Shown here piece by piece: positions 22,417 to 52,531 of a stretch of DNA of 64,000 nucleotides. The stretch lies in assembly GCA_001899285.1 (NCBI GenBank), contig MKWA01000010.1:62001-126000 (forward strand), in the 5' to 3' direction. Positions within the stretch are counted from its first letter, which is position 1. Each line of letters starts with the position of its first letter. The DNA comes from Rhizobiales bacterium 64-17 (lineage in GTDB: Bacteria; Pseudomonadota; Alphaproteobacteria; Rhizobiales; Xanthobacteraceae). The notes below the pieces were generated by a model. It worked only from the letters and a program-made list of their open reading frames with translations, was not told the DNA's origin and did no database searches. The position numbers and the translations under genes were made by a program.

Positions 22417-23092
22417 CAATAAACGATCTCATTCCAAACCAACTCACATTTCGATGTGTAAAGGATACGAGCGTCAAACTCATCAAACTCGACGCTCTTA
22501 ACCCTCATGGTGTGGCCAACTCCAAGAGCCACCACCCTAAGGGCTGAGAACAGGCACCATCTCACCGATATACGCGTCAATTCGCTCCAGGCCCGGCGCA
22601 GGCACGACATCGCGCTCAGAAAGAGTCGGCGCGGGCGGCGTATCTCCCAGAGCGTCGGGCGATTGTGAATACGCGCACAAACTGTTCGTTCGTGATGATG
22701 GCCGCCGGCCCGATGGTTCCTCTCGGACGGTCCCGCCTTCTCTTCTCCATTCGGAAATTCTAGGGCCGGTTCAGGAGACGAACAGGGCTAGAAAATCGAA
22801 TTATTCCGCACGGATTCATTCGAAAATCCACCCTGACGAAAATGTGGGATCGAATGGGATATGGGATTGAGAGGAAAAGGAATTTCCCTGATCTCACCGG
22901 CCCTTAGGGGGGTGTCTGGCGGAGAGGGAGACCGCCTCCGCCTAACTCATTAAGCGCCGGCAAGCCCCGCTAGCGGGCGGAAACATCCTAAATCCCAGAT
23001 TTTATTGATTTACCGACCGCCGTTAAGACCCGATAATAGTCGGCAAGAACCGGCAGCGCGGCCGGGGGTCGTTCCGGAGGTCCCTTATAATC
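22417..23092. other. Intergenic region spanning the left border of island 1
   Basis: There is no convincing gene. Bases 22,417-22,914 are host intergenic DNA upstream of the response-regulator gene. The tRNA-derived repeat at 22,915-22,930 marks the junction. From there to 23,092 is the leader of int1, with GGAGGTCCC as Shine-Dalgarno sequence and short direct repeats (GTCGGCAAGAACCGGCA) that may be integrase arm sites. Confidence 0.6.
22915..22930. repeat. Attachment-site repeat, left end of island 1 (copy A)
   Basis: TCTGGCGGAGAGGGAG. Bases 22,917-22,930 are identical to the 3' end of tRNA-Ser(CGA) at 52,442-52,455 and to the middle copy at 36,213-36,226. It lies 163 bases before the int1 start codon. 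This is the expected outer att site of an island that uses the tRNA 3' end. Confidence 0.85.
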
Positions 23093-24310
23093 ATGCCGTT
23101 GACAGCACTACGCGTGGCTAGGCTGAAAAAACCTGGCCGCCATGGAGATGGGCACGGCCTCTATCTTCAAATTACGAACTCCGGCGTGAAATCCTGGCTC
23201 CTTCGCTACGAACGGACCGGACGCGAACGTTGGCTCGGACTTGGCCCGCTGCATACGGTTTCCCTTCACGAAGCACGAGAACGCGCCCGAAGAGCCCGCT
23301 TGCAGCTATTGGATGGCACGGACCCGATTGAGGCGAAAAAACAGGCCAAAGCCGAGCAAGCACTAGCTGCCGCCAAAACAATCACCTTCGAACAGGCAAC
23401 CACGCAATATTTCAACGCAAACGAAAAGCGCTGGAAAAACCCGAAACACCGCAATCAATTCCTCTCAAGCATGAAAGCCTATGCATTCCCAAAGTTTGGG
23501 AAGCTTCCGGTCAACGAGATTGACCGTGGACTGGTCCTCCAGGTTCTAGATGCAATCTGGCAAGATAAGACTGAAACGGCCAGCCGTGTTCGGGGGCGGA
23601 TAGAGCGCGTTCTCGATTGGGCATCAGTCCGAGGGTTTCGCTCAGGAGAGAATCCAGCACGGTGGCGCGGGCATCTTGAACATGCCCTCCCGGCGCGCGG
23701 CAATCTCGCTAAACCACAGCATCACCCTGCCCTGCCTTATCGAGAACTACCGGATTTCATCCGATTGCTCCGAACTCGGATGGGGGTAGCGGCCTGCGCG
23801 GTTGAATTCACGATCCTGACCGCAGCACGGACGGGCGAAGTAATCGGAGCGACATGGGACGAAATCAATTTGGAAGAGGCTGTCTGGACCGTGCCTGCAA
23901 GCCGCATGAAGGCGAAGAAGGAGCACCGAGTGCCGTTATCCGATAGGTCACTTGAAATCCTTCGGGCACTTCCACGCGAGCGCAACAACCCTTTCGTGTT
24001 TATCGGCCCTCACCGCAGCGGCCTATCCAATATGGCGATGGCGTCTGTACTGCGCCGAATGGACCGCAAAGACATTACCGTTCACGGCTTTCGCAGCACC
24101 TTTCGGGATTGGGCGGCCGAGCGTACCGCTTACGATAACCCCGTGGTCGAGCAAGCGTTGGCGCACACAATTGGCAATGCCGTTGAACGTGCCTATAGAC
24201 GCGGAGATATGCTGGACAAGCGGCGAAAGCTGATGAGCGATTGGGCCTCGTATTCTAATCTAACTGGATGGGCCGGGAATGAAGGCCAAGTAATACCTAT
24301 CAGAGGATAG
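23093..24310 (+). CDS. int: Tyrosine-type integrase, P4 family (island 1)
   Basis: 405 residues. The N-terminal DUF4102-type arm-binding domain (LYLQITNSGVKSWLLRYE, LGLGPLHTVSLHEARERA) is followed by a SAM-like core-binding domain (about 95-195) and the catalytic domain. Active-site residues are R246 (TAARTGEV), H331 and R334 (HGFRSTFRDW), H358 (LAHTIGN) and Y368 (ERAYRRGDML). The ATG at 23093 has GGAGG upstream. It reads inward from att copy A, as is usual for tRNA-targeting islands. Its last 72 bases recur, diverged and interrupted by a stop, at 28,579-28,650. Confidence 0.96.
   Translation: MPLTALRVARLKKPGRHGDGHGLYLQITNSGVKSWLLRYERTGRERWLGLGPLHTVSLHEARERARRARLQLLDGTDPIEAKKQAKAEQALAAAKTITFEQATTQYFNANEKRWKNPKHRNQFLSSMKAYAFPKFGKLPVNEIDRGLVLQVLDAIWQDKTETASRVRGRIERVLDWASVRGFRSGENPARWRGHLEHALPARGNLAKPQHHPALPYRELPDFIRLLRTRMGVAACAVEFTILTAARTGEVIGATWDEINLEEAVWTVPASRMKAKKEHRVPLSDRSLEILRALPRERNNPFVFIGPHRSGLSNMAMASVLRRMDRKDITVHGFRSTFRDWAAERTAYDNPVVEQALAHTIGNAVERAYRRGDMLDKRRKLMSDWASYSNLTGWAGNEGQVIPIRG
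24239..24254. repeat. 16-bp direct repeat at the int1 3' end (left end of nested element)
   Basis: GATTGGGCCTCGTATT recurs exactly at 28,579-28,594. The following 56 bases of each copy align without gaps at clearly lower identity. The pair flanks 4.3 kb that contain the TIR/SLOG cluster and the broken integrase. Confidence 0.6.
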
Positions 24311-24712: not shown

Positions 24713-25729
24713 TCAGGTCGTGGCGACTGGGTTCCACCAAACGCGCTTGCCCTGCGCAGCTTCGTGCAACCGCAGAAGCGCGCCGTTCGCGGGGTCTCGC
24801 AATAAAACCCGATAGCCTGGCGCAATTTCATCAGGAAACTGTATCGTACTTCCAAAAGAATGAATGATCTCTGTGCACGCCTCTAGCGTCTGAAACACCA
24901 CACGCGAGATCCAAGGCATAAGGGAAACGATATTGTCGTTGTAATAGTGCTCCTTCGTCCATGGGAAGCTCCCATAAGGCCGCGACTGCGGACTGACAGC
25001 GAAGCCTTTGTCAGTGACGAAGATGTGGCCAACACTTGAATTTCCGTGAATGATCCGATCACGAGATACGCGCAATGATGCGAAGAATGGAGCGTGCTTT
25101 TCATACTGAGCGGCTACTAAAGGGGGCAAGGCGTACTTCGCGATGAGGGCCGCCGCATTCTGAGGCTTGTCGCTTGCAAAGGCGACTTTTGCAAATGTCG
25201 TGGGCATTCGATTGCGCTTCTTCAATGCCTGATCTGACTCATTCAAGAGCTTCACGCTGTCATTCCAGAACCGCGAAATAACTTCTTGAAGTAAATCGAA
25301 AATCGAGCGAGTGACGACCAACATATACTCAATCTCCGATCTGACGAACGACGCCATTAAGCCCTCATCTGCGCCCGCACGAGTAGAGTGCAAATGCTCC
25401 AGCTTAGCTGCGCTCGCCGCGAGGAGATGAAAATCGTCTTCGATTGCCGATAAAAAAGGAACTAGCTCCGGATAACTGAGACGTTGCCAAACAATTTCGA
25501 TGATGGGAATCCAAAGGTCGCTCTCCCTCGCGGCTACGGTCTTCGTCAAATAAAGCGAGTGAGCGGCGTCCATTATCTTGATCTGTATGAGGCGACCGTC
25601 GGGTCCGTCGATCCAATGGCTCCAGTTTTCGCCATCCCACACGGGCAGCATTCGCAATGTGCGGCCACCAAGTCCCGCCACATCGAGATGTTTAAGATTT
25701 GCCAATTCTTCGCGACTAACTGCCCCCAT
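24713..25729 (-). CDS. Unknown protein with HEPN-like R-x4-H motif, last gene of the TIR/SLOG cluster
   Basis: 338 residues, cytoplasmic, mostly predicted helical in its middle (about 85-235) with a beta-like N-terminal part (residues 20-70) and a short C-terminal tail. No named family is recognised. The stretch FASLRVSRDRIIHGN (about residues 216-230) contains R223-x4-H228, the spacing of HEPN ribonuclease active sites, in a helix preceded by acidic and polar residues. HEPN domains are common effectors in defence islands, but many carry the motif without catalysis. The ATG at 25729 has no clear Shine-Dalgarno sequence. A 122-base gap separates it from the SLOG gene on the same strand. The base composition is more A+T-rich than the host flanks. 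Confidence 0.75.
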   Translation of the reverse strand: MGAVSREELANLKHLDVAGLGGRTLRMLPVWDGENWSHWIDGPDGRLIQIKIMDAAHSLYLTKTVAARESDLWIPIIEIVWQRLSYPELVPFLSAIEDDFHLLAASAAKLEHLHSTRAGADEGLMASFVRSEIEYMLVVTRSIFDLLQEVISRFWNDSVKLLNESDQALKKRNRMPTTFAKVAFASDKPQNAAALIAKYALPPLVAAQYEKHAPFFASLRVSRDRIIHGNSSVGHIFVTDKGFAVSPQSRPYGSFPWTKEHYYNDNIVSLMPWISRVVFQTLEACTEIIHSFGSTIQFPDEIAPGYRVLLRDPANGALLRLHEAAQGKRVWWNPVATT

Positions 25730-25851
25730 AGCTACACTAATGATAGCTCATTTCAGCGCTGTGGCGCGGCTTTAATTTCTGATCGCACTCCCCGATATAT
25801 GTGTGACGGATTTTTGAGTTAATACACTCAGTATGAGGTATTGATTTTCGA

Positions 25852-26514
25852 TCAGCTATTCTTGGTTTGAAAAGCCCAAAGACGCTCACTCTGTGAGCTC
25901 GGCTGCTCCTCAGGAGTGGCAAAACGCATTTCTCGCTTATCGATATTGAGATGGCGGTGGAACAGAGACACATAATCAAAGTCTTTGGATAGATCCTCTG
26001 AGAAGCCCACGTCCCTTCGGGCGCCCAATTCAAGAACAGCGCCTCCTGTGGAAAGAACCGGCACGGTTGCCGCGCGCGGTTGCAACTCTCGAAATAACAA
26101 GAACTCGTCCACGACTCCACCCATGCCGCCTATGAACACGGCGGCATGGAATTTATTTTCGCGAAACATCTTCTCGCGCATATGCGCGAGGCTCTTTTCG
26201 CGGTCGCCATCTATAATGTCTGTAAGGTTGAGGTTGTGAAACCGCTTGTTCTCCTCTGGAAAGTCCTCCTCGAACAGCCTACTTTGGTAGAGCTTAACCC
26301 ACTTCCCATAGTCCACGCCCATACTCTCGGATACGACGAGTACCATGGGGGTTATGGCTGGATGACCGCCCCATACCAATGGGCGGCGTCCTAGCGTGAC
26401 ATATACGAGCGCAGTTACGGCGGCGGTTATGGCGACCGTGTCAGCGGATTTCGCGAATGCGGGTGCCCTTTTGGAATCGGGCACGCTGGCTGAAAGGAAA
26501 ATGGCGTCACTCAA
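25852..26514 (-). CDS. SLOG (STALD-type) domain protein associated with TIR
   Basis: About 220 residues. The pattern DAIFLSASVPD (residues 3-13), RPLVWGGHPAITPMV (44-58) and FIGGMGGVVDEFLLF (127-141) is that of the STALD branch of the SLOG/Rossmannoid superfamily, whose members accompany SIR2 or TIR proteins. In Thoeris ThsA a SLOG domain senses the cyclic ADP-ribose isomer made by ThsB. Here it stands alone with no SIR2 or macro domain. I prefer the TTG at 26512-26514, which overlaps the TIR gene stop as TTGA and has GGGAG at suitable distance; an upstream TTG at 26544 would lengthen it by 10 residues. Confidence 0.8.
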   Translation of the reverse strand: MSDAIFLSASVPDSKRAPAFAKSADTVAITAAVTALVYVTLGRRPLVWGGHPAITPMVLVVSESMGVDYGKWVKLYQSRLFEEDFPEENKRFHNLNLTDIIDGDREKSLAHMREKMFRENKFHAAVFIGGMGGVVDEFLLFRELQPRAATVPVLSTGGAVLELGARRDVGFSEDLSKDFDYVSLFHRHLNIDKREMRFATPEEQPSSQSERLWAFQTKNS

Positions 26515-27677
26515 GGCTTGTGCTCCCACGCCGCCAGCACCCAACTAGCTTCCGCTGACTTGATCGCACGAACTACGTCGATGTTATCATCTAACCACTT
26601 GAGATGCTCCGCCCACGCATTCGACACCCCAACGTGATCATACACAAGGATTGCCACGTCCTTGTACTGGGCGCGCCTCGCTTTCACGGCCACGTCGTTT
26701 AGCAGTTCGGCTGTTGGGATGCCCACAATTGGATATGCCCAAACCTGCCGCTTATCTTCAAGAAGTATCGACACTGCACGATGAGAGCCAATGCCAGAGA
26801 TTGACGCGCCGATGCGCTCAGCATCTGCCCGAAGTCTTCCTGTGATCGACATATACCGCGATGCAATGCTTTTGCTTCGAAGTCGTTCAACGAGGACGAT
26901 AATGTTATCGATCGTAGTCGCTACAATAGGGCCGTCCGGGCCACTAAGATCAGCAGCATCTAGGTAGACTGTCTCGGCGAGAGCAGTGAACCTGCTTGGC
27001 GTGTGACCGGGCCAGACCACACGCAGAATGTGAATCTCCTTTGCACGCGCGCGACCGAGTTCCTGAGTAGTCCACTTGCTGTTGAAATAGTTTGGCGTGT
27101 CGAGCATGACTACGACATCGGAGTCACACAACCGATGAAAGAGCACTTCTTGAAATGGCTCCCCAGGTCTGATGTCATGGGTGTCTAAGAATACGTCAAA
27201 GCCGCGTCCTGATAAGTTGTCGTGCAACTGTATCGCAGCAGCGCGCGATTCAGTGCGGCGATAGCTTACAAAAACGCGACGTTGCTTTCTAAGCAGTCCT
27301 ACAATCTCCAGCAATGCCGCAGCTAGTTCGTTCATTGCGGGATCATCATAGCGCCTGCGTAGACCGTTTGAGGATTGAAGGCATTCTGGAACATCGGTGA
27401 CGAAAGAGCCTTCGGGCCCAACACTGGGAATGATTGGCAGGCTCGCGCCAACAAGGTCTTTGACTTCCTCGACATCCTTGCTGGCGTCGCCGCCAAAATA
27501 AGTCGCAGCGAAAGCTGCTCGAAGATCGCGCGAAGCAACGGTTGACGCATCATGAATCAGGACGTCGTCGTCGATTTTAAGGCCGAAGTCCGCCAGCATC
27601 TCGGCGATAGTTTGGGTAATGCGACTGCGCTCTGCCGAGGTCGCATTACCAAGTATGGCAAGTTCGTAAAGACTCAA
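26511..27677 (-). CDS. TIR-domain protein with unknown N- and C-terminal domains
   Basis: 388 residues. The first 130 residues (YELAILGNATSAERSRITQ onward) form a domain I cannot name. The TIR domain spans about 133-265: RRVFVSYRRTESRAAAIQLH, FDVFLDTHDIRPGEPFQE, DSDVVVMLDTPNYFNSKWTTQELGRA. E206 in the TTQEL helix is the expected catalytic Glu of NAD-cleaving TIRs. A C-terminal domain (about 290-388) has alternating strands and helices. The TTG start at 27675-27677 has GAGG five bases before it. It is coupled downstream to the SLOG gene and lies 33 bases after the ThsB-like gene, so the four genes form one likely operon. It could make a nucleotide signal for the SLOG partner or be a second NADase. 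Confidence 0.85.
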   Translation of the reverse strand: MSLYELAILGNATSAERSRITQTIAEMLADFGLKIDDDVLIHDASTVASRDLRAAFAATYFGGDASKDVEEVKDLVGASLPIIPSVGPEGSFVTDVPECLQSSNGLRRRYDDPAMNELAAALLEIVGLLRKQRRVFVSYRRTESRAAAIQLHDNLSGRGFDVFLDTHDIRPGEPFQEVLFHRLCDSDVVVMLDTPNYFNSKWTTQELGRARAKEIHILRVVWPGHTPSRFTALAETVYLDAADLSGPDGPIVATTIDNIIVLVERLRSKSIASRYMSITGRLRADAERIGASISGIGSHRAVSILLEDKRQVWAYPIVGIPTAELLNDVAVKARRAQYKDVAILVYDHVGVSNAWAEHLKWLDDNIDVVRAIKSAEASWVLAAWEHKP

Positions 27678-27710
27678 GGTAACCTCGACGCAAAGTAACT
27701 CGGCAGCAGC

Positions 27711-28172
27711 TTAGCGCGGTTTTCTTTTTGCGTTCGCTACAAGCGTCTCGATGTTGTTGCTGATGCTTGCGTACACAGTTTTGCTGTCAGCACCCGGCGG
27801 ATCATATGGAGTGATCAGGTCGCTGAACGGGCTATTCCCACGAGCCGATGTTTTCTGAGTGCCGAGGTCTTTGAGACCATGAATTCGAATGCCCATGACC
27901 CCTAGCCCATCCGCCCAAGCCTTCTTGATCTCGTATTGGACCCAGGGGCGCTTTGAGGTGTTCGTTCCAATGAGAACAACGAGGCAGTCCTTGCCCTTCA
28001 TCTCAGCCGCGATCCAATTCTCAACGGCCTTGTCGCCTTTCTTCTTCACTTCCTCCCAATTTTGGCCCGAAAGCATCTGCTGGCCCTCGACAACACCCAT
28101 GTTGACGACCTGCTGTACGCGTGACGCGTCTTCGTCGTAGTAAAAGCTGTAGTAGACCTTCTTCTTCGCCAT
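27711..28172 (-). CDS. ThsB-like TIR domain protein (Thoeris-type sensor/cyclase)
   Basis: 153 residues from the ATG at 28170-28172, which follows GAGGGGGTG; the longer frame to 28316 has no supporting site. The whole protein is a MTH538/ThsB-type TIR fold: KVYYSFYYDEDASRVQQV, GDKAVENWIAAEMKGKDCLVVLIG, and TSKRPWVQYEIKKAWADG with the expected catalytic Glu at E81. ThsB proteins recognise phage infection and convert NAD to a cyclic ADP-ribose isomer. It is the first gene of the cluster. No ThsA with SIR2 is present in the window, so the effector must differ or lie elsewhere. Confidence 0.88.
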   Translation of the reverse strand: MAKKKVYYSFYYDEDASRVQQVVNMGVVEGQQMLSGQNWEEVKKKGDKAVENWIAAEMKGKDCLVVLIGTNTSKRPWVQYEIKKAWADGLGVMGIRIHGLKDLGTQKTSARGNSPFSDLITPYDPPGADSKTVYASISNNIETLVANAKRKPR

Positions 28173-28578: not shown

Positions 28579-28650
28579 GATTGGGCCTCGTATTGCAATC
28601 AGACTTAGGGAGTCGATAATCAGGGTCAGGTGACACCTACTAGAGATTAA
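28579..28650 (+). pseudogene. 3'-terminal remnant of an int1-like P4 integrase
   Basis: 24 codons align without gaps to the last 24 codons of int1 (24,239-24,310): DWASY-N-T then GxVxPxR before the stop. The first 16 bases are identical; the rest differ at about two of five bases and include an in-frame TAG. It marks where the original int 3' end was displaced, so the segment 24,255-28,578 is most simply read as a later insertion at the int 3' end. Confidence 0.6.
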
Positions 28651-50412: not shown

Positions 50413-51051
50413 CTAGTCATCCTCAGAATTTGCCAGGGCAATCGTCCTGTCCCTGGTCAATCCCAATTCCTTCTTGATACGGCCAACCGTGCGCTTCACC
50501 GATTTGGGGAGTTTGACGTGCTGGACACCAGCAACGTCAGGAACCACACCTATAGTGATTTCAAAATCCTGTTTCGCAAATTGCTTATTAAGCTCCACAG
50601 TTAATGCCGCCTCTAACTCGGCGGCGGGCACACCTTCTTTTTCTAATTTGTTTTGAAGGCGCTTCAAAAATTCCGTCAGCTTGGGATCACTCACTGCTAC
50701 GTATTTTTCTGTCACCCTCACGGAGCGAAAAGTGTGTAGCAGCTTGTCGATCTCAGCAGGCGAAAACTCCTCGCCGTTCGCCGCCGCGTTGATCGCACCC
50801 TCACGCAGCATCTTCGTCAAAAGACCGCCAGTGCGGCCAGAGCGGATATGCTCCTGAGCGTATCGCTTGGCGTCTTTCTCGCCCATGCGGTTCGCCAGCA
50901 GAGCGTAAGCTTTGTCGAAGTAGCCCTGCGCTTCCGCGATCTTCTCGGCTTGCGCGGCAATGTCGCTCGCACGCTTGCGGGCACCTTTGCGCGCCAGATC
51001 GCGCAAAGCTTCATTGTGATTGATCTTTAGGTCTTTCCTAGGCGACGGCAT
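50413..51051 (-). CDS. Hypothetical protein downstream of integrase
   Basis: 212 residues from ATG 51049-51051, overlapping the integrase stop by 14 bases. The first half is helical and basic (SPRKDLKINHNEALRDLARKG, RASDIAAQAEKIAEAQGYFDKAYALLANRMG); a middle region has paired helices (FSPAEIDKLLHTFRSVRVTEKY) and the end is basic. No recognised family. Its linkage to int2 suggests an accessory to recombination or island maintenance. Confidence 0.6.
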   Translation of the reverse strand: MPSPRKDLKINHNEALRDLARKGARKRASDIAAQAEKIAEAQGYFDKAYALLANRMGEKDAKRYAQEHIRSGRTGGLLTKMLREGAINAAANGEEFSPAEIDKLLHTFRSVRVTEKYVAVSDPKLTEFLKRLQNKLEKEGVPAAELEAALTVELNKQFAKQDFEITIGVVPDVAGVQHVKLPKSVKRTVGRIKKELGLTRDRTIALANSEDD

Positions 51052-52288
51052 GGCTCGCCTCCCGCAACGGGACCACATTGTTAGTCGTGCTCGGAGGCGC
51101 CTGACAGTAATCGGCCCACATGGTCATAAGCCGCGTGCGCTTCTCTAAGCCAGTGCCGCGACGGTACGCCGCCTCGGCCTTGTCAGTGATACCGTGCGCC
51201 AATGCAAACTCGACCGTCTCGCGGTCGAAGCCGGAACGATCTCCCGCCCAATCGCGGAAGGTCGAGCGGAAGCCGTGCGCGGTCACGTCACGCTTCATGC
51301 GGCGCAGAAGCATAAGGAAGGCCATGGTGCTGAGCGGCTTATCGCCCTGGCCGGGAAACACGTAGCCCTCGCGCGTCGGCATCGCCTCCAATATCTCGAC
51401 GGCGCGCGGCGACAACGGGACAACGTGCTCGCGTCCCGCCTTCATGCGCTCAGCCGGAACGATCCACAGCTTGGCGTCCAAGTCGATCTCGGCCCAAGTG
51501 CAGCCGAGCACTTCGCCAGTGCGCGCGGCGGTCAAGATCGCAAACTCCAAAGCGCGAGCCGCCACAGCGGGACGTTCCCGCAGCTCGCCCATGAACACGG
51601 GCAGCTCGACATACGGCATGGCTTCATGATGCTTCACGGCGCCCGTGGGCTTCGCCAGCATGTGTTTAAGGTGGCCTTGCCAGCGCGCGGGATTGAGCCC
51701 TTCGGCGCGATAACCGCCAATGGTGGCGAAGTTCAAGATCGCCTCGATACGGCCTCGCACGCGCGTGGCGGTTTCGTGCTTGTCGTTCCAGATCGGGCGC
51801 AACACTTGCAGCACCTGGGGCGTATCAATCGAGCCCACGGGCAGCTTGCCGATGATCGGGAAGGCGTAAGCTTCCAGGGTCGAAAGCCACTGCGCCCGAT
51901 GCTTGGCATTGCGCCAGCTCTTTTCATGGGTCGCGACATACTCGCGGGCGCACGCCTCGAAACTGATCGCCCTGGCGGCTTCGAGCTGCGCCTGGGTCCG
52001 CTCGGCCTTGCGGGCGGAAATCGGGTCAACGCCGTCGAGGAGAAGCTTGCGGGCGTCCTGGGCTCTCACCCTGGCCTCCGCCAAGCTGACGAGATCGAAA
52101 GGCCCGAGCCCCATCCAGTGGGCTCGACCGTGGAGCTGATACCGCAGCGCCCAGGACGCGGTGGTGGTATCGCTGTCCTTGACCGCCTGCACGCGCAGCA
52201 CGAGCCCGTTGCCGTCCGCATGGACGCCAGGGACCCGCGCGACCTTCCGCAGCGTGGCCGTGTTCAAACGCTCTTTCACGCGAGGCAT
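51038..52288 (-). CDS. int: Tyrosine-type integrase, P4 family (island 2)
   Basis: 416 residues. The DUF4102-type N-terminus (LVLRVQAVKDSDTTTASWALRYQ, LGPFDLVSLAEARVRAQ) and catalytic residues R256 (TAARTGEVLG), H338/R341 (HGFRSTFRDW), H365 (LAHGI) and Y375 (AAYRRGTG) are intact. It resembles int1 over its full length but is clearly diverged. It starts 153 bases from the tRNA-Ser 3' end, as is typical for tRNA-targeting integrases. It probably inserted island 2 at the tRNA. Confidence 0.96.
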   Translation of the reverse strand: MPRVKERLNTATLRKVARVPGVHADGNGLVLRVQAVKDSDTTTASWALRYQLHGRAHWMGLGPFDLVSLAEARVRAQDARKLLLDGVDPISARKAERTQAQLEAARAISFEACAREYVATHEKSWRNAKHRAQWLSTLEAYAFPIIGKLPVGSIDTPQVLQVLRPIWNDKHETATRVRGRIEAILNFATIGGYRAEGLNPARWQGHLKHMLAKPTGAVKHHEAMPYVELPVFMGELRERPAVAARALEFAILTAARTGEVLGCTWAEIDLDAKLWIVPAERMKAGREHVVPLSPRAVEILEAMPTREGYVFPGQGDKPLSTMAFLMLLRRMKRDVTAHGFRSTFRDWAGDRSGFDRETVEFALAHGITDKAEAAYRRGTGLEKRTRLMTMWADYCQAPPSTTNNVVPLREASHAVA

Positions 52289-52441
52289 GGTACGCGCCTC
52301 CTGCTACTGGCTATGCTACAATTGTGGGGCGAAGGCAGGCGAATGTCAACGGTAGCAAGCGGACCGCTTACATCAAAAAGCGCTTATAATTAACGGTTTT
52401 TGGTTAATCGCGAAAACGAGCGAAAGCCTACGGAAGCGTTC

Positions 52442-52456
52442 TGGCGGAGAGGGAGG
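52442..52456. repeat. Attachment-site repeat, right end of island 2 within tRNA-Ser (copy C)
   Basis: TGGCGGAGAGGGAGG is the 3' end of the tRNA gene (CCA end at 52,442). It is identical to 36,213-36,227 over 15 bases and to 22,917-22,930 over 14. This copy keeps the tRNA intact. Confidence 0.88.
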
Positions 52457-52531
52457 GATTCGAACCCCCGATACCCTTGCGAGTATGCCGCATTTCGAGT
52501 GCGGTGCTTTCAACCACTCAGCCACCTCTCC
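52442..52531 (-). tRNA. tRNA-Ser(CGA), target of island integration
   Basis: 90 bases on the minus strand with acceptor stem GGAGAGG/CCTCTCC, encoded CCA, long variable arm (as in class II tRNAs) and anticodon loop CTCGAAA, giving anticodon CGA. The TTCGAAT T-loop is present. The tRNA 3' end is the attachment core that also occurs at 36,213 and 22,917. Confidence 0.95.

Follow-up and report, generated by a model that had tools for sequence, protein, structure and literature searches.

A probable type III Thoeris locus on a likely mobile island of Rhizobiales bacterium 64-17, whose ThsB-like TIR gene appears to be traded between Thoeris types

A 64,000-nucleotide stretch from Rhizobiales bacterium 64-17 (contig MKWA01000010.1, positions 62,001 to 126,000; hereafter the window) carries three adjacent genes encoding a ThsB-like TIR protein (TIR1), a larger TIR protein (TIR2) and a stand-alone SLOG protein (ThcA). 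By comparison with protein family models, TIR2 and ThcA form the core of an already named kind of system, type III Thoeris. We propose that the locus is cargo of an island and works as a relay, in which TIR1 would be the sensor that makes an ADP-ribose-type signal, ThcA the receptor of this signal and TIR2 an effector that cleaves nicotinamide adenine dinucleotide (NAD+), i.e. an NADase; we give this reading a probability of roughly 0.6. An earlier note, made from the sequence of the window alone, had described the three genes, together with a downstream gene for a 338-residue protein (P338), as a Thoeris-like locus without SIR2 and perhaps a new variant of nucleotide-signal defence. The likeness to Thoeris was borne out by the ThsB-type TIR and the two type III core genes; the novelty was not, as NCBIfam already names both core genes.

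Assignment of the core relies on the equivalog models of the June 2026 release of NCBIfam. TIR2 matches model NF058526 (Thoeris type III ThcB4) with 464.8 bits at a cut-off of 220 and over profile positions 1-375 of 375, while ThcA reaches 250.2 bits on NF058525 (Thoeris type III ThcA), whose cut-off is 110, over positions 1-184 of 184. Because both proteins pass the cut-offs over the full models, the core is, as judged by these models, of a known kind. The same matches rule out a new system and place this SIR2-less locus within an existing NCBIfam family. The numeral in ThcB4 implies that there are further ThcB TIR proteins. Neither the phrase “type III Thoeris” nor Thoeris combined with ThcA was found in open-licence PubMed Central papers, and print elsewhere is possible; types I, II and IV are discussed in passages of PMC12847820, and types I and II in passages of PMC12948488.

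TIR2 additionally matches Pfam TIR_2 (8.1e-18), and the PADLOC model PDLC00434 (ThsB) covers it end to end (residues 3-381, 1.1e-80). Its N- and C-terminal regions, which had been taken for new domains, are typical of its own family, the single NCBIfam model spanning residues 4-379. The family profile matches TIR chains of SARM1 (1.8e-4), and E206, pointed out earlier, is Glu in 78 of 78 rows of TIR2, for which three of the 80 loci were too short to be used. No phage homologues of TIR2 were found. The genome itself contains two TIR_2 matches, one being TIR2; the other lies elsewhere (G000:C24:266982-267176, L087), inside a 310-codon open frame.

The earlier note had correctly read the positions of the four open reading frames, all on the minus strand (Table 1), the 33-base spacing between the TIR1 and TIR2 genes and the TTGA overlap of the TIR2 stop with the start of the SLOG gene at 26511-26514. 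The TTG start of ThcA at 26514 sits within the stop codon of TIR2; the list of open reading frames has a longer version that starts at 26544. The reading frames of TIR1, TIR2 and ThcA are all intact.

To assess conservation, contigs of 84,980 species genomes were scanned, which yielded 113 relatives of the SLOG protein, and the best 80 were used for all counts of related loci; taxa in the record titles of the relatives include Pseudomonadota, a cyanobacterium, Acidobacteria and Chitinophagaceae. As only 3.2 to 16.7 kb of DNA is available per related locus, neighbouring genes may be missing in places. A ThcB4-like TIR gene immediately precedes the SLOG gene in 79 of the 80 loci, and in the exception (L035) the final 60 residues of TIR2 remain, with 55% identity. 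A ThsB-like TIR gene lies within 4 kb in 70 loci, with two or more copies in 11. The set of two TIR genes and one SLOG gene is thus conserved in other genomes, and the suggested co-conservation stands for these three; it fails for the fourth gene, which had been counted as a member of the locus and is present in none of the 80. Loss of catalytic residues in homologues, raised beforehand as an objection, was not seen: the TIR glutamates and the SLOG residues are retained. Likewise, no SIR2 partner emerged: Pfam detected no SIR2 domain in the four locus proteins, and the genome gave no match to PF13289 (SIR2_2) or to PF18185 (STALD), PF02146 not being part of this search.

ThcA had been designated a STALD-type SLOG. 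In the Pfam scan it matches LD_cluster3 (PF18180, 5.2e-72), of which it is the one match in its genome, and has no match to STALD at E up to 1, which rules out that type. Across 80 rows (one locus dropped), S8, R113, G129-M131, G133 and E137 are invariant. Profile-profile comparison reveals distant kinship between ThcA and the STALD receptor domain of ThsA: 42 ThcA rows aligned with nine ThsA STALD domains with a probability of 96.3% and an E of 1.7e-9. S8, R113 and E137 align with S29, R116 and E150, which are invariant across the nine-domain set. Conserved residues at the putative ligand site of ThsA are given in a passage of PMC7272460 as Ser288, Phe357, Arg371 and Glu403, and going by order and motif we would equate the Ser, Arg and Glu of ThcA with Ser288, Arg371 and Glu403. 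F85 of ThcA aligns with the ThsA Phe, but is not among the columns conserved at 90%. The best match of the ThcA profile in the PDB was 7uxt, with a non-significant E of 0.049.

TIR1 is ThsB-like by several measures. It matches Pfam ThsB_TIR (PF08937, 1.9e-24), ThsB models of PADLOC (4.8e-55) and, in the PDB, chain 8wcf (3.5e-35) as well as ThsB1 (9b7d, 8e-13). In NCBIfam it has no match above cut-off; it scores 11.1 bits on the single type III TIR model that it touched, and no other ThcB model came up. E81, singled out in the earlier note, is Glu in every one of the 83 ThsB-like rows aligned. Residue 7 of TIR1 is Tyr, where 72 of 74 aligned ThsB-like rows have Phe and one has Ser; we take it to match the Tyr of nucleoside deoxyribosyltransferases. 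Sensors of type II have a special active-site tyrosine where other NADase TIRs carry Phe or Ala, according to a passage of PMC11204291. Mapped by motif only, Tyr7 of TIR1 could be this residue or a different one.

We next consider how closely the three genes are tied to one another. Pairwise distances were compared in a mirror-tree analysis of 56 dereplicated rows out of the 70 loci with all three genes. Distances of TIR2 and ThcA correlate with r 0.90. TIR1 co-varies weakly overall, with r 0.26 to TIR2 and 0.27 to ThcA and Spearman coefficients of about zero; its row for each locus was the best match to TIR1 of the window, which may add noise. In the 21 loci with TIR1 directly upstream, as in the window, r is 0.39 and 0.43. 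Plasmids were compared using the 60 best listed of 74 TIR1 matches and lists of ThsA comprising 60 of 223 records plus two looked up singly. These records point to the same mobility: of the 60 best listed matches, 20 have a ThcA match and 14 a SIR2 ThsA match at a distance of up to 6 kb, with no case of both, and the other 26 have neither in the lists compared. The two best plasmid matches of TIR1 (50% and 48% identity) adjoin a ThsA with SIR2_2 and STALD domains by Pfam, i.e. a type I system. Finally, a tree of 74 ThsB-like rows was built, 64 from ThcA loci and 10 from nine SIR2 loci, after 25 of 99 rows with less than 60 bits had been excluded. Seven of the nine SIR2 loci were typed by the annotation “SIR2 family protein” and by C-terminal alignment with two Pfam-checked STALD domains. 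The ThsB genes of the SIR2 (type I) loci nest among the ThsB-like genes of ThcA loci: the partner label changes 7 times on the tree, and at least 6 changes are forced by branches with support of 95 or more in the Shimodaira-Hasegawa-like approximate likelihood ratio test (SH-aLRT). This interleaving of sensors between Thoeris types is what the present analysis adds, and the alarm-sensing TIR gene appears to be traded between the types. More tentatively, and at somewhat less than even odds, types I and III would draw on a shared sensor pool and use a common alphabet of signals. A ThsB-like TIR could then change places, serving a SIR2-SLOG effector in one locus and a SLOG plus TIR effector in another, type III being a relay from a TIR enzyme via a free-standing SLOG receptor to a second TIR enzyme.

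Further genes recur beside ThsB-like TIR genes and ThcA. In a Dietzia plasmid (L097, 4995-5910) and two more records, a HIT-domain gene abuts or overlaps the ThsB-like TIR gene and may represent another partner of the Thoeris kind. Some ThcA loci contain a patatin-like phospholipase gene within the TIR array, for instance L055 (5174-6790) and the E. coli plasmid L099 (6467-8080). The clustered loci comprise 67 dereplicated ones and the window; 7 of them have this family, six of the proteins having about 540-560 residues, and in both loci scanned the patatin is fused to an LD_cluster2 SLOG, possibly forming a second signal-reading effector. A family of about 139 residues with hydrophobic stretches, recognized by eye, is found near ThcA in 7 clustered loci (L068, L069, L071, L077, L080, L006 and L018) and could be a membrane partner. 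Three linked families (about 378, 220 and 208 residues) stand beside ThcA in 15 clustered loci, e.g. L055, L063, L074 and L078, perhaps marking a shared integration hot spot.

The proposed relay takes type I as its model. There, ThsB proteins sense phage and produce cyclic ADP-ribose isomers, which are bound by the SLOG domain of ThsA, and several ThsB proteins can serve one ThsA (passages of PMC11204291). In the simplest transfer, the variable TIR1-like genes would be the sensors, ThcA the receptor and TIR2 the constant effector. TIR1 would sense a phage component and make from NAD+ a small signal molecule of the ADP-ribose type; as in type I, this would most likely be an isomer of cyclic ADP-ribose. 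The stand-alone SLOG protein ThcA would bind this signal and, once loaded, activate its co-evolving partner TIR2, presumably by direct contact. Activated TIR2 would degrade NAD+, thereby halting the cell before the phage completes its cycle, and in this way the locus would act in defence. Speaking for this reading are the equivalog matches of TIR2 and ThcA, the adjacency and co-variation of their genes, the retained TIR glutamates and SLOG positions, the kinship of ThcA with STALD, the interleaving of TIR1-like genes with ThsB of type I and the match of the TIR2 profile to the NADase SARM1.

Several points weigh against the relay and the exchange of its sensor. The correlation of TIR1 with the core over 56 rows, weak as it is, exceeds 2000 of 2000 permutations, and where TIR1 lies directly downstream (17 loci) it co-varies with the core with r 0.70 and 0.82. 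Full independence of TIR1 from the core was therefore rejected: a low correlation persists overall, and it is high in one of the subsets. On the tree, rows with the same partner label group together more than in shuffles, where the label changes 9.6 times on average compared with 7 here and only 2 to 4 of 500 shuffles are as low; this is a quick tree without bootstrap, and TIR1 of the window forms a long branch that joins no strongly supported set (SH-aLRT of 95 or more). As Tyr7 replaces the Phe common to 72 of 74 rows, TIR1 may make another product. In some loci, the SLOG-patatin gene could be the effector, and the published mechanism of type III Thoeris may differ from the relay proposed here.

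Alternatively, the roles could be swapped, which we consider unlikely: TIR2 would be a signal maker regulated by ThcA, and the part of executioner would fall to a gene elsewhere or to ThcA itself, which might for instance be a nucleotide hydrolase of the LOG kind. The name ThcB hints at this, since the letter B marks ThsB-like signal producers, and PADLOC also files TIR2 under ThsB. Moreover, TIR2 always accompanies ThcA, and the GGMxG...E motif of ThcA, invariant in 80 of 80 rows, presumably resembles that of LOG-type SLOG enzymes. However, it is the ThsB genes that vary in number in type I, next to one effector (passage of PMC11204291), and in the related loci the ThsB-like TIRs are variable and TIR2 is constant, which favours TIR2 as effector.

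The 338-residue protein had been put forward as candidate effector, and its R223-x4-H228 motif is indeed present and kept in four of four aligned homologues (27-44% identity). R-x4-6-H is a mark of HEPN proteins, and the residues invariant across the four rows (E132, E134, R141, R220, R223 and H228) fit a HEPN ribonuclease by motif. P338 could then be a ribonuclease triggered via ThcA, all the more as its gene is on the same strand, 122 bases downstream of ThcA, and as accessory effectors occur, given that other loci carry extra genes such as SLOG-patatin. P338 is HEPN-like by motif only, though: with E up to 1 allowed, searches of Pfam, PADLOC, NCBIfam and PHROGs found nothing for it, a single-sequence search of the PDB was equally empty, and its profile gave only PDB hits of E 0.28 and above. 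Homologues are found on plasmids of Rhizobium hidalgonense (44%) and Bradyrhizobium quebecense (27%) and in one further genome (33%), besides fragments. No others were found among 100 relatives or 385 genomes of the class; a profile scan of 398 phylum genomes returned three (one full length, one partial, one weak with six stops), and further scans of 300 and 214 genomes returned those same genomes. Three of 72,556 plasmid records contain a P338 homologue, one of them a short fragment, and none was found either in phage records or among the viral contigs reached by the pattern filter. Surroundings of three full-length homologues and one fragment are free of TIR1, TIR2 and ThcA matches, so that P338 looks like a roaming cargo gene; the Bradyrhizobium homologue follows multiubiquitin, E2 and ThiF genes at the end of their operon. 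Promoter-like and terminator-like matches around P338 are near chance level and do not settle co-transcription. Because the gene is absent from all 80 ThcA loci and its few relatives stand beside other genes, P338 is probably an unlinked cargo gene rather than a member of the system, and a role as effector is highly improbable. Equally hard to credit is that the island is old and the locus on it a decayed or inactive relic: although TIR1 forms a long, divergent branch and has an unusual Tyr7, and parts of an integrase end are apparently repeated on the island (24239, 28579), all three reading frames are intact and the TIR glutamates and SLOG residues are kept.

The locus lies between two copies of a 16-base direct repeat, each a candidate attachment site (Table 1), and G+C drops from 0.63-0.68 (18-22 kb of the window) to 0.50-0.57 (23-30 kb). 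The DNA between the repeats also encodes a Prim-Pol primase, a terminase, a Cfr10I/Bse634I-type endonuclease, a C5 methylase and a Vsr protein. The segment 22915-52455, about 29.5 kb long, is probably made up of more than one integrated element, and the island is likely mobile. When loci of six relatives were inspected for an empty integration site, the tRNA gene and the flank beyond it were conserved without a match to the island, and the left flank was unmatched too; two of the six have less than 300 bases beyond the tRNA. A stretch of sixteen bases close to where the left integrase gene ends at its 3’ side (24239-24254) is found again at 28579-28594, beyond the Thoeris genes; the latter copy could be the leftover end of an older integrase.

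Table 1. Features of the Thoeris locus and of the surrounding island, in positions of the window.
Feature	Position	Strand	Evidence or remark
TIR1, ThsB-like TIR, 153 residues from ATG, E81, putative infection sensor/signal producer	27711-28172	-	PF08937, PADLOC, PDB
TIR2 (ThcB4), 388 residues, TTG start, TIR about 135-242, E206, putative effector NADase	26511-27677	-	NF058526
ThcA, stand-alone SLOG (LD_cluster3), 220 residues from TTG, putative signal receptor	25852-26514	-	PF18180, NF058525
P338, 338 residues, R223-x4-H228, HEPN-like by motif only	24713-25729	-	4-row alignment
Tyrosine integrase, one island end	23093-24310	+	Pfam PF00589, PF22022, PF13356
Second integrase gene, just inside the other end	51041-52288		
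16-base direct repeat, candidate attachment site (left)	22915-22930		exact copy at 52440-52455
16-base direct repeat, candidate attachment site (right)	52440-52455		14 bases are the 3’ end of tRNA-Ser(CGA)
tRNA-Ser(CGA)	52442-52531		

With the claim of a new system corrected, the lasting point is a constant ThcA-ThcB4 pair combined with a changeable ThsB-like sensor that is also found beside SIR2-type ThsA, a division of labour that can be tested. If the signal is shared, a single library of sensors could be screened with several effectors, and the phage sponges known for type I would be expected to block type III as well.

Compared with known systems, the locus agrees with type III Thoeris in that its core proteins exceed both equivalog cut-offs end to end and that the core genes are adjacent and overlapping as in the relatives; it differs in its TIR1, which has no NCBIfam match above cut-off, and in the unrelated 338-residue gene that follows. 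With type I, composed of a SIR2-STALD ThsA and ThsB, it shares a TIR1 up to 50% identical to a ThsB beside such a ThsA and a ThcA distantly related to the STALD receptor domain. Unlike type I, it has no SIR2, its SLOG is a separate protein of LD_cluster3, and a larger second TIR would take the place of the effector. Type II, with a transmembrane-macro ThsA, and the caspase-like type IV likewise use nucleotide signals made by TIR proteins (passages of PMC12847820 and PMC11204291), and the locus would resemble them in this respect; the four proteins of the window, however, have no macro or peptidase match in Pfam, a macro domain not having been searched for elsewhere in the genome. To SARM1 and other TIR NADases, TIR2 is linked by the match of its family profile to the SARM1 TIR and by the retained, predicted catalytic glutamate, and is set apart from them by its N- and C-terminal regions.

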